A stretch of DNA of 64,000 bases from Alistipes sp. (lineage in GTDB: Bacteria; Bacteroidota; Bacteroidia; Bacteroidales; Rikenellaceae): the NCBI GenBank assembly GCA_017379015.1, contig JAFNXN010000014.1, positions 1 through 64,000 on the forward strand, written 5' to 3'. The notes under the pieces are model-generated. The model did no database searches. It was not told the DNA's origin and saw nothing but the letters and a program-made list of their open reading frames with translations. Below are positions 35,044 to 38,483 of the stretch, piece after piece. Position 1 is the stretch's first letter; the number at the start of each line of letters is the position of its first letter. The translations under genes and the position numbers were made by a program.

Positions 35044-35820
35044 TTAGTCATCTATGCCCTTGTGCTCTACGTTTGCTGCGCCTGATGAGCTAATATTCTT
35101 TGTTGCTGGGTTGCCCGCATAGTATACGTCAGCACTGCCCGAGGCCACGACAGTAAGGTTATTTGAGGCGTACACATTAACATCGGCACCTCCCGAGGCT
35201 GATACCTCCACCTGCTCGGCAACGAGCATCTTAGCATTTAGGTCTGCACCTCCCGAGGCTAATACGTATAGCTGCTGGCTTTTGCCTCTTAGCTCTACGT
35301 CCGCTCCTCCCGAGGCAGATACTTTTAGTCGCTGACTTTCACCCTCTAGCACCACGTCTGATCCTCCCGAGGCTGAGAGCTCTATGCTCTCGCTCTGGGT
35401 GGTTATCGCTACGTCGGCACCACCTGATGCGGCTATTGCGAGATCTTGTGACGTGCAGTTGTGCCACTTTAGGTCGGCACCTCCCGATATTGCCACGTTG
35501 CTATAGTCGAATGCTGGGATTCTCACCGAGAGGGTCTCAGCTCTAAGTTCTCTGTTTTTAAGCTTGATGTTGAGGGTCGTATCATCTATGTATATCTCTA
35601 CGCTCTCCATTAGGTCGCTGTGTGTAACAACTTCTATCTCATCGAGTGGCATTGTGGGATCTACCGTTACGTCAAATCCATGAGATATGGCTAGGGCTTT
35701 AGGTTCGCCACTTATTGCTAGTCTCTGCTTGATGATCTCTCCCTTTGCCATCTCTCGAACTACTACGGCGCATGATGTTAGCGATAGGGTAACAGCTAAG
35801 ATTGTAATAAGTCGTTTCAT
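35044..35820 (-). CDS. DUF2807 (head GIN domain) lipoprotein
   Basis: A 258-residue lipoprotein (LTSC lipobox, C17). After an N-terminal strand region, residues 108-245 consist of seven repeats of 19-20 residues built on SASGGADV or close variants, the pattern of the DUF2807 beta-helix. The same periodicity is visible in DNA as a recurring TCCCGAGG at 57-60 base steps. The family has been called putative adhesin; its role is not settled. It lies 47 bases after the TonB-dependent receptor gene and is presumably co-transcribed, so it may share that promoter's switching. Confidence 0.85.
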   Translation of the reverse strand: MKRLITILAVTLSLTSCAVVVREMAKGEIIKQRLAISGEPKALAISHGFDVTVDPTMPLDEIEVVTHSDLMESVEIYIDDTTLNIKLKNRELRAETLSVRIPAFDYSNVAISGGADLKWHNCTSQDLAIAASGGADVAITTQSESIELSASGGSDVVLEGESQRLKVSASGGADVELRGKSQQLYVLASGGADLNAKMLVAEQVEVSASGGADVNVYASNNLTVVASGSADVYYAGNPATKNISSSGAANVEHKGIDD

Positions 35821-35867: not shown

Positions 35868-38255
35868 TTAGTTGTTGCCACCAAGACGGCTGCGATCCTC
35901 CGCCGAGCCACTCTCGACGCTCTTTGCCTGGAACTTTTTACCTGAGTTGAAGTTGTACGATATTGAGAAGTTTACTGCGGGGCGCATCCATGGCTGGTCG
36001 ACGGTCATTGTGCGCTTGAATGTAGGCTCCTCCATTGTTATGGTCTGCTTCACCGGTATAACGTTGTCCACACCCAGCTTTAGTGTAAGTCTCTTTCCTA
36101 TGAGGTGTTTCTTTACAGAGATGTCTAGGTTTCCGAAATCCTTGATCTTGGTGTTACCCGCCACCATGCCGTGTGCATATCTGCCGCTAGCCTCGATGAT
36201 AAAGTCCATGGGTAGGGTGAATGCCATCTGGCAATTACCAGTAGCCATAAAGTTGCGTCGCAATGGCTCTTCAGGGTAGATGCGCTGACCCATATACATT
36301 CCCGTGATATTTATGTTTGCCGACCACCACTTTGTGATCTGGAATGGTAGGTTTGCCGAGACGAAGAAGTTGTTGAGCGTAGGGTAGTTTATTGTCTGCA
36401 AGATTAGCAACTCAGGGTTCTTCTTATCCACGATTGTTGTCTGCTGGATAGCATTCTGCATTATCTGCATACCGATGGTTATGGTGTACTTATACTTTAG
36501 CACGCCAGTTAGCGATAGCGAGTTGTTGTACGAGGGCTTAAGGTTGGGGTTTCCACGCTGTATCATATACTCCGAGATCTTTGTCTCGTTTGGCGATAGT
36601 GCCCAGAACGAGGGTCGAGATATGGTGCGTGAGTACTGCGCTATGAGTGAGTATGCTCCATCCTGGGTTAGGGCATACGATACGTTGGCATTTGGAAATA
36701 GGTCTAGGTAGTTCTGCTTCACCTCTCCATCTGCCGAACGAAACCATGTGTACTCTCCGCGCAGACCACCCACAAGGCTTAGGCGACCCATGCGTGATGT
36801 GGCTATAATATATGCTGCAGCGATATTCTCCGTGTAGCCTATGTTGTAGCTGTTCTCCTCGTTTTTGAGCCATGACTCTCCATTTAGGTACTCGTACAAT
36901 CCGTCGTTGCTGTTGGTGTTATAGGTGTACTTTGCGCCCGCTTTAAGTATTAGCTTTGGTGATATGATCTTCTCTAGGGCAAGTGTTGCAGTGCCTAGTT
37001 GGTAGTGGCTATAGGTGTTGCTACGGTAGGTCGAGTCGCGTCTAAATGGCTGCTCGATGATTGTTGTGGTGTCAAAATAGTTGTTCCTGTTTGGCGTGCG
37101 CGAGTCTGTGTAGTCGCCGATAAACTTAATCACCGAGCCCATGTTGTCGAGCTTGTAGATGTAGTTTGCCGTGGCTGTTGTCATCTGGCTATGGTATTTG
37201 TTTGTGTAGTTGCCATCAGTACGTGTTGTCATGCCACCCATGTGGTGCTCTGTCCATGTATCTGTCTGGCTACCACCGCCATAGTAGTTGTATTGCACCT
37301 CCAGACCTACGGAGTGCTTTAAGTTGATGTCGTAGACCATGCCTATGTTAGCACCTCCCCAATGTGTCTTATCTGTCTGGTTTGAGGCTGCGTCTATCTT
37401 GGTTAGTGATGCGTAGTCGGTATGTTCGCCCATTATGTAGTCCTGATTGTTTAGTCCCGTCCACGCACGACCATAGGCATTTAGCTTGTCGCGGTTGTAG
37501 TTGAGCGATACCGAAGGCATTAGGTGGTGGTTGCCCTTGGTTGCGCGTAATGATAGCGATGCTGAGCCCATCAGACCAGTGTCGACGCGTCGCTTAGTGG
37601 TGATCTTGATGATACCACCCGACGATGATGCGTCGTAGTCTGCACCCGATTGGGGCACTACCTCAATACGCTGAATATCGTTTGCCGTGAGCGAGCGAAG
37701 GTATGCCATGAGCTGCGCATCGTCGAGCTTCACCTCGCGATCGTTTAGGTAGACCTTTGAGCCCGATGCACCGTTTATCGAGATCTTATCATCCTGAATC
37801 CATACTCCTGGGGCACTCTTAAGCAGCTCCTCACCATCCTTACCCATGGCAATGGGGGAGTTGGCAACGTCGACCACGAAGCGGTCTGCCTCGCGACGTA
37901 TGAGCTGAGCTGTTACCACTACCTCGTCGATCTGCTCAGAGTCGCTCTTAAGAGTGATGTCGCCGAGCGATGTGTTCTTCGTAAGTTCTAATTGCTGGGT
38001 ATGTGTGGTGTAACCTATGTAGCTGATTGTTAGTGTGTACTCACCCTCTGGAGCGTAGAGAGCAAAGCCTCCACTCTCCGATGTGGCTCCACCGGCTGCC
38101 TGCCCCGCGGGTGTGGTGAGCACCACGGTTGCGTATGGGATGTTTTGCGCATTCTCGTCAATGACACGTCCTGTAAGTTCTAATTTTTGGGCCGATAGTG
38201 TGGCAACGCTCATCACTGCAACAAGTGTTGCGACTATTGTTCTTAAGTCTTTCAT
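35868..38255 (-). CDS. TonB-dependent outer-membrane receptor (outer membrane beta-barrel family)
   Basis: A 795-residue outer-membrane protein with signal peptide (ending LSAQ, about 1-22). A carboxypeptidase-regulatory-like domain (LTGRVIDENAQNIPYATVVL, about 26-110) precedes the plug (EVVVTAQ ... GVWIQDDKISINGASGSKVYLNDREV ... IEVVPQSGADYDASSSGGII). The rest is a beta-barrel with alternating aromatic strands. It is of the OMP-barrel type without a SusD partner, so its ligand is unknown (metal chelate, peptide or other). It is followed by a DUF2807 lipoprotein and controlled by a promoter with a G9 tract. An A/T-rich 394-base region lies upstream. Confidence 0.9.
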   Translation of the reverse strand: MKDLRTIVATLVAVMSVATLSAQKLELTGRVIDENAQNIPYATVVLTTPAGQAAGGATSESGGFALYAPEGEYTLTISYIGYTTHTQQLELTKNTSLGDITLKSDSEQIDEVVVTAQLIRREADRFVVDVANSPIAMGKDGEELLKSAPGVWIQDDKISINGASGSKVYLNDREVKLDDAQLMAYLRSLTANDIQRIEVVPQSGADYDASSSGGIIKITTKRRVDTGLMGSASLSLRATKGNHHLMPSVSLNYNRDKLNAYGRAWTGLNNQDYIMGEHTDYASLTKIDAASNQTDKTHWGGANIGMVYDINLKHSVGLEVQYNYYGGGSQTDTWTEHHMGGMTTRTDGNYTNKYHSQMTTATANYIYKLDNMGSVIKFIGDYTDSRTPNRNNYFDTTTIIEQPFRRDSTYRSNTYSHYQLGTATLALEKIISPKLILKAGAKYTYNTNSNDGLYEYLNGESWLKNEENSYNIGYTENIAAAYIIATSRMGRLSLVGGLRGEYTWFRSADGEVKQNYLDLFPNANVSYALTQDGAYSLIAQYSRTISRPSFWALSPNETKISEYMIQRGNPNLKPSYNNSLSLTGVLKYKYTITIGMQIMQNAIQQTTIVDKKNPELLILQTINYPTLNNFFVSANLPFQITKWWSANINITGMYMGQRIYPEEPLRRNFMATGNCQMAFTLPMDFIIEASGRYAHGMVAGNTKIKDFGNLDISVKKHLIGKRLTLKLGVDNVIPVKQTITMEEPTFKRTMTVDQPWMRPAVNFSISYNFNSGKKFQAKSVESGSAEDRSRLGGNN

Positions 38256-38300: not shown

Positions 38301-38331
38301 CAAAGTTAACACTTTCCCCCCCCCATCCAAA
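38301..38331 (-). promoter_or_regulatory. Receptor promoter with a nine-G tract in its spacer
   Basis: On the minus strand TTTG (38328-38331), a 19-base spacer and TAACTTTG (38301-38308) fit the consensus. The spacer contains nine consecutive G (38316-38324 as C on the plus strand). Slippage in this run would change the -33/-7 spacing by single bases and so could switch or grade expression. The leader is about 42 bases. Confidence 0.7.
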
Positions 38332-38426
38332 TTTTTCACTCTCTTTTTGATGGTTAAGTATAGTTTTTTCTTTATAAGACGTTTTTGACCTCTGTTTGTA
38401 ACGTAAATCGGCTATTATATCAGCCT

Positions 38427-38450
38427 AGTGTATTACTTAACTAATACACT
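38427..38450. promoter_or_regulatory. Operator-like palindrome at the distal receptor promoter
   Basis: AGTGTATTA and TAATACACT are perfect inverted repeats separated by 6 bases. It sits immediately downstream of the distal -7 box, over the expected transcription start, where a dimeric repressor would block initiation. It could also be a 5' mRNA hairpin. Confidence 0.55.
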
Positions 38451-38451
38451 G

Positions 38452-38483
38452 CAAATGTATGCTCTTATTTTCTAAATTCCAAA
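38452..38483 (-). promoter_or_regulatory. Distal promoter of the TonB receptor
   Basis: Minus-strand TTTG (38480-38483), a 20-base spacer and TACATTTG (38452-38459) match the consensus. It would give a leader of about 190 bases that crosses the G-tract promoter. Confidence 0.6.

Follow-up and report, generated by a model that had tools for sequence, protein, structure and literature searches.

In Neisseria meningitidis, a poly-G tract lies between the promoter boxes of porA, and one G more or less alters transcription; at hifA/hifB of Haemophilus influenzae, repeat number sets the promoter-box spacing for a surface structure (both as described in the available portion of PMC3899988). The initial annotation of the DNA analyzed here had called homopolymer slippage in a promoter spacer an established switch for surface proteins in other bacteria, with Neisseria and Haemophilus as examples. 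G tracts of this kind are hypermutable in other bacteria; those of Campylobacter jejuni are described, in the available text of PMC8355987, as mainly G9–G10 through opposite biases in G8 and G11. Within the Bacteroidales, surface-molecule phase variation is represented by the invertible promoters of Bacteroides (PMC12632263), and phase variation in gut members of the order is described as DNA inversion in the available portions of two reviews (PMC12632263; PMC11868660), in keeping with the annotation's statement that inversion is the known route in this group. The words 'slipped' and 'homopolymer' are absent from the available portion of the former review, and the accessible part of PMC3090145 goes only as far as suggesting slippage for a coding gene of B. 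fragilis. In a search of mainly open-access literature for slippage or homopolymers in Bacteroidetes, Bacteroides, Bacteroidales or Alistipes, none of the papers listed could be recognized by its title or abstract as describing promoters of this type in these groups.

We analyzed a 64-kb stretch of DNA from a gut Alistipes (hereafter termed the window) in which a promoter with a G9 tract in its spacer precedes a gene for a receptor-like outer-membrane protein. Read on the minus strand, positions 38301–38331 comprise TTTG-GAT-GGGGGGGGG-AAAGTGT-TAACTTTG, wherein the −33 box TTTG occupies 38328–38331, the −7 box TAACTTTG occupies 38301–38308, and the 19-nt spacer consists of GAT, G9 and AAAGTGT. 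The tract itself, which is the presumed slippage site, spans 38316–38324 on the minus strand (C9 on the plus strand); no other run of G or C in the window exceeds 5. Rereading of the minus strand thus reproduced exactly the coordinates first assigned to TTTG and TAACTTTG, 19 bases apart with nine Gs between. Both boxes agree with the consensus for the primary sigma factor of Bacteroidota, given in the available text of PMC7366714 as TTTG near −33 and TAnnTTTG at −7, and 45 nt separate the −7 box from the receptor ATG.

The receptor gene (35868–38255, minus strand) is an ORF for 795 amino acids with Pfam matches to an OMP_b-brl_3 barrel and a carboxypeptidase-regulatory-like N-terminal domain; no Pfam match to a plug domain was obtained at E 0.001. 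Relatives of this receptor are present in 180 of 180 genomes of the genus. A DUF2807 lipoprotein gene, identified as an ORF and by Pfam, follows 47 bp behind it (35044–35820, minus strand) and is probably co-transcribed. The annotation had placed this lipoprotein under the same control, which is plausible given that the gene adjoins the receptor at 16 of 23 named loci, but the arrangement is not general. These 23 loci come from metagenome-assembled genomes labeled Alistipes sp. (21, from ruminant guts according to their records) or Rikenellaceae bacterium (2). With a best identity of 81%, none of them was accepted as another assembly of the window's species.

Genomes were scanned with the pattern TTTG-N0–15-G7+-N0–15-TAnnTTTG, and the reversed pattern served as a control. 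A homopolymer between both promoter boxes, which is the feature of the porA type, was found at 38301–38331 and in 103 of the 180 genomes of the genus, with 232 matches (nested ones included) versus 3 for the reversed pattern, or 77 times the control. An exact G5 in the same position gave 107 matches versus 46 reversed. At the level of the family, 115 of 268 genomes carry the pattern. Its representation outside the genus but within the family is weak (12 of 88 genomes; 15 matches versus 6 reversed). Across the phylum, 24 of 395 genomes carry it, window included, with 28 versus 14 reversed among the matches listed. Hereafter, class a denotes promoters with the tract near −33 and class b those with the tract against −7. 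One genome of another Bacteroidota class recovered in the phylum scan (G550) contains four class-b-like sites, for example TTTGGAAATGTCATG12TAGTTTTG, and these are possibly the same device arisen independently.

A version of the pattern with C7+ produced 14 matches in 8 of the 180 genus genomes versus 2 reversed. Half of these matches (7 of 14) reside in a single genome (G088); in these seven promoters (e.g., L094) the spacer is 21 nt long and C9 follows directly after TTTG, at a place where relatives have G9. One similar promoter each was found in G053 and G093, and the idea that the tract must be G is therefore rejected. An ORF is present at four of six C-run loci inspected, and each of the four ORFs has an exported-like start as judged by eye.

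To describe the genes behind tract promoters, we examined 130 loci (L001, L032–L060 and L136–L235) taken from the matches listed. Among them are 125 distinct tract promoters, whose spacers measure 17 to 23 nt, and a downstream gene, defined as an ATG-initiated ORF of at least 60 amino acids within 250 bp, accompanies 110 of them. By our own simple signal-peptide rule, the first gene looks exported in 103 of these 110 cases, versus 28 of 66 behind tract-less promoters (from the window, L002–L059 and L091–L121). The 110 first genes form 45 protein clusters, among which are the receptor (18 of 110), an exported family of about 180 amino acids (11; its member L038 lacks a Pfam match), lipoproteins that are BACON-like with a Pfam score below its cutoff (10), and M16 peptidases (9). 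A GntR regulator (L159) is one of the seven exceptions that do not look exported. It counts against a switch that some of the long G tracts in the genome from which the window derives lie near no exported gene. Nor do all tracts examined fit: one precedes a thioredoxin-reductase-like gene, and several are intergenic with no evident role.

Because the tract promoter recurs before many surface-protein genes throughout the genus, it is probably an on/off switch driven by slippage. We consider it likely, judging from the sequence, that the G9 tract at the receptor is a contingency switch that operates by slipped-strand phase variation through promoter spacing. Slipped-strand mispairing at replication would cause the tract to gain or lose Gs, and the distance from the −33 TTTG to the −7 TAnnTTTG would thereby lengthen or shorten one base at a time. 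Since the promoters of this genome mostly have spacers of 19 to 20 nt, the tract as assembled (G9, 19 nt) is predicted to be ON; a 20-nt spacer would probably be ON as well, and spacers of 18 or 21 nt would be weak or OFF. The outcome would be a population mixed for the receptor, and probably for the DUF2807 lipoprotein too, on top of transcription from a distal promoter. The receptor switch would be one of a genus-wide set located before genes for exported proteins. The sequences themselves show the anatomy of these promoters, their enrichment, the class of gene behind them, the shift in spacer length and the indels between species; from these we infer hypermutation within strains, consequences for transcription and selection that favors heterogeneous populations.

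In line with a switch, spacer lengths differ between tract promoters and ordinary ones. For homopolymer-free promoters of the window and loci, the spacer measures 18, 19, 20 and 21 nt in 5, 39, 46 and 3 cases, respectively, and the first 100 of 253 matches to ordinary promoters in the window's own genome give 7, 29, 29 and 6. The description of 19 bases as an ideal spacing is borne out by these peaks at 19 and 20, and the concentration of ordinary promoters at 19 to 20 nt implies that host promoters may be sensitive to spacer length. For 140 de-nested tract promoters among the matches listed, the corresponding counts are 56, 40, 6 and 15, with 23 elsewhere. Note that the P value for this comparison (8e-14) treats orthologs as independent and is therefore descriptive only. 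In the 38 receptor upstream regions, 21 tract promoters are present, 16 with a spacer of 18 nt and 5, including the window copy, with a spacer of 19 nt, whereas 30 distal promoters in these regions have spacers of 20 nt (25) or 19 nt (5).

The foremost alternative is that G9 is a fixed cis-element, either the site of an unknown regulator or a stretch of stiff DNA, that tunes a regulon of exported proteins and whose length is selected and constant within a strain. Tract lengths are indeed narrow, with G9 in 101 and G8 in 23 of the 140 promoters among the matches listed, and a mode of exactly 9 both suits a fixed element and counts against a switch; opposite biases in G8 and G11 like those of Campylobacter would account for this mode. 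Also in favor of a fixed element, the spacer of class a receptor promoters stays at 18 nt in 11 of 13 species, and TTTGGAAAATTCGTG9TAAATTTG, the class b sequence, recurs uniformly before unrelated genes. A pronounced coding-strand bias toward G rather than C points the same way; it goes far beyond what slippage predicts, and the rarity of C-run promoters counts against the switch. Nevertheless, a C9 version does exist in one genome.

The position of the tract argues against a fixed element. The 30 close orthologs of the receptor comprise 13 with a class a promoter, 5 with class b and 12 with no tract promoter, and on a quick 30-row receptor tree the tract states need 6 changes (class b alone, 3). 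Because the tract can be found at either end of the spacer, the spacer is the target, and the position inside it is not fixed. In support of the switch, spacer length rises with G number in class b (r = +0.73; 61 promoters among the matches listed). We rejected the idea that tract length is offset by the rest of the spacer, since such compensation is absent from class b (r = +0.23, 61 promoters) and weak in class a (r = −0.21, 66 promoters).

Sister species can carry tracts of different lengths. Among 181 distinct G7+ tracts there are 20 homologous pairs that can be compared across the tract, and the length is the same in 11, which counts against a switch, and different in 9. Four of the nine differing pairs have a spacer that is otherwise identical (G9/G10, G8/G10, G9/G8 and G11/G9), an outcome not expected of a fixed element, and two others have a G-to-A change at the tract edge while the spacer stays at 18 nt. 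At one lipoprotein promoter (G034 versus G045), G8 versus G5 yields spacers of 18 versus 15 nt, and this difference is the sole gap in the alignment, which has 430 columns and 395 identities. In eleven checked pairs, flank gaps number 0 to 4 in seven and 6 to 7 in four (about 240 columns), and the latter four indicate that the tract is not always the sole indel, a point against the switch.

Long G tracts also occur inside coding regions, which is again at odds with a fixed promoter element. In the window's own genome, an in-frame G9 is located in the genes for three exported proteins: a DUF3575 protein, in its signal peptide (L002); a 366-amino acid protein with no Pfam match, in its hydrophobic start (L009); and a SusC-like receptor, in the regulatory-like domain that precedes its plug (L022). 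The DUF3575 gene carries two G9 tracts (C1:43195 and C1:43370), one upstream and one in the signal peptide. With the evidence on both sides considered, we view a fixed element as unlikely. Phase variation by slippage, which the initial annotation had called likely, is the reading that best fits tracts that occur genus-wide before exported-protein genes, at either spacer end, and in some cases with G-only indels between sister species that alter spacer length.

Some tracts have other settings. In a relative (G102), a PAPS-reductase-like gene (L256; C9:64527) is frame-broken at a G11 tract, as if the assembly had captured it OFF. Two genomes have long G tracts 86 to 276 bp upstream of fimbrillin-like genes, and four of five such genes were confirmed as DUF6562. 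These upstream tracts (L020, L028, L245, L248 and L251) are G9–G10 followed by A(A)TTT and lie outside any TTTG/TAnnTTTG frame; they are perhaps a second type of tract promoter.

Transcription of the receptor may have further sources. A distal promoter, TTTG-N20-TACATTTG (38452–38483, minus strand), was identified from the sequence and has a counterpart in 30 of 38 receptor upstream regions, with a spacer of 20 nt in 25 and 19 nt in 5. Just behind its −7 box lies an operator-like inverted repeat, AGTGTATTA-N6-TAATACACT (38427–38450, minus strand), for which a script pattern matched in 27 of the 38 regions and which may be the binding site of a repressor of the GntR type. A possible promoter element, GTTACAAA..CGTCTTAT (38370–38403, minus strand), perhaps of the ECF type, separates the distal promoter from the tract promoter; a similar GTTAC..CGTTA element occurs in 17 of the 38 regions, although the window copy fails the strict pattern. 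With the distal promoter, its palindromic operator and perhaps an ECF-type element in place, the receptor would not necessarily be turned off by a change in the tract, and the presence of these other promoters upstream counts against the switch. It could even be that the tract slips and matters little at this gene, with the distal or ECF-type promoter making most of the transcript. Retention of the distal promoter and palindrome in most upstream regions is compatible with such a minor role, as is the lack of a tract promoter in 12 of 30 close orthologs. However, the tract promoter is kept in 21 of 38 orthologs with its boxes intact and near the gene, and we judge a minor role to be quite improbable.

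The tract also stands out from the run-length background. In the window there are 23 G or C runs of length 5, none of 6, 7 or 8, and one of 9, where a first-order model expects 0.09 runs of at least 9 per window. In the whole 1.71-Mb assembly, G8, G9 and G10 runs number 2, 14 and 1, respectively, and the 122 overlapping G6 words leave 55 for shorter runs (the number of G6 runs plus twice the number of G7 runs). This second peak at 9 in the window's own genome is therefore not a decaying background. Runs of length 4 to 9 number 632, 83, 0, 1, 2 and 11 in 251 kb comprising the window and the 23 receptor loci, which are biased toward the tract promoter. A long-tract excess at many surface-gene loci, as in Campylobacter, is thus evident from the second peak at G9, the 45 clusters and the 103 of 110 exported-like first genes. 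Two long G tracts of the same genome (L006 at C3:39465 and L024 at C32:259) have a similar upstream stretch, TTGCTAACTA..GA.TATTAGAA, which is perhaps a repeated element. A chance run or an assembly artifact is hardly credible: the window genome is a draft at 78% completeness and assembled homopolymer lengths may be off by one, but the promoter recurs in 103 of 180 assemblies (one with a 1.88-Mb contig) at 77 times the reversed control, and the genus and phylum scans together with the G5 comparison make chance unlikely.

Mismatch repair is lost in some multilocus phase-variable species, although this is not a required feature. MutS_I is present in the window's own genome, in 161 of 180 genus genomes and in 69 of the 70 good ones. 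We thus reject a loss of mismatch repair as the cause, and the presence of MutS counts against the switch. On balance, we favor the broader proposal that Alistipes, perhaps with two sister genera, possesses a multilocus G9 phasome, with many tracts in promoter spacers, that would independently randomize dozens of exported-protein kinds (45 clusters seen) and whose tracts would have been repeatedly gained, lost and moved. Since many assembled copies have spacers of 18 or 21 nt, which are predicted to be weak or OFF, different cells of a strain would expose different and changing sets of surface proteins, much as in Campylobacter. If this proposal is true, individual strains are predicted to be heterogeneous in their receptors, lipoproteins and fimbrillin-like proteins, which would affect persistence, escape from phages and recognition by the immune system, and a large G-tract set in a commensal genus would bear directly on the inversion-centered view of gut Bacteroidales.

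The Alistipes tract promoter is a candidate member of the porA kind, as both have poly-G in a promoter spacer. Unlike porA, the Alistipes promoters have TTTG/TAnnTTTG boxes, belong to a commensal host of the Bacteroidota, and occur at many loci. The hifA/hifB system uses a TA dinucleotide repeat in a bidirectional promoter, whereas the Alistipes promoters use a G run. Campylobacter jejuni, as far as the available text describes it, resembles Alistipes in having many G tracts, with a mode of 9 to 10, in both intergenic and coding positions, but its tracts are mostly coding, whereas the promoter spacer is a main site in Alistipes. The Bacteroides systems share with our candidate a promoter-level action in Bacteroidales, but they rely on DNA inversion by an invertase rather than on homopolymer slippage. 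In our best reading, what would be new here is switching by spacer slippage in a Bacteroidota promoter, at many loci of a commensal genus, by a principle known from porA.
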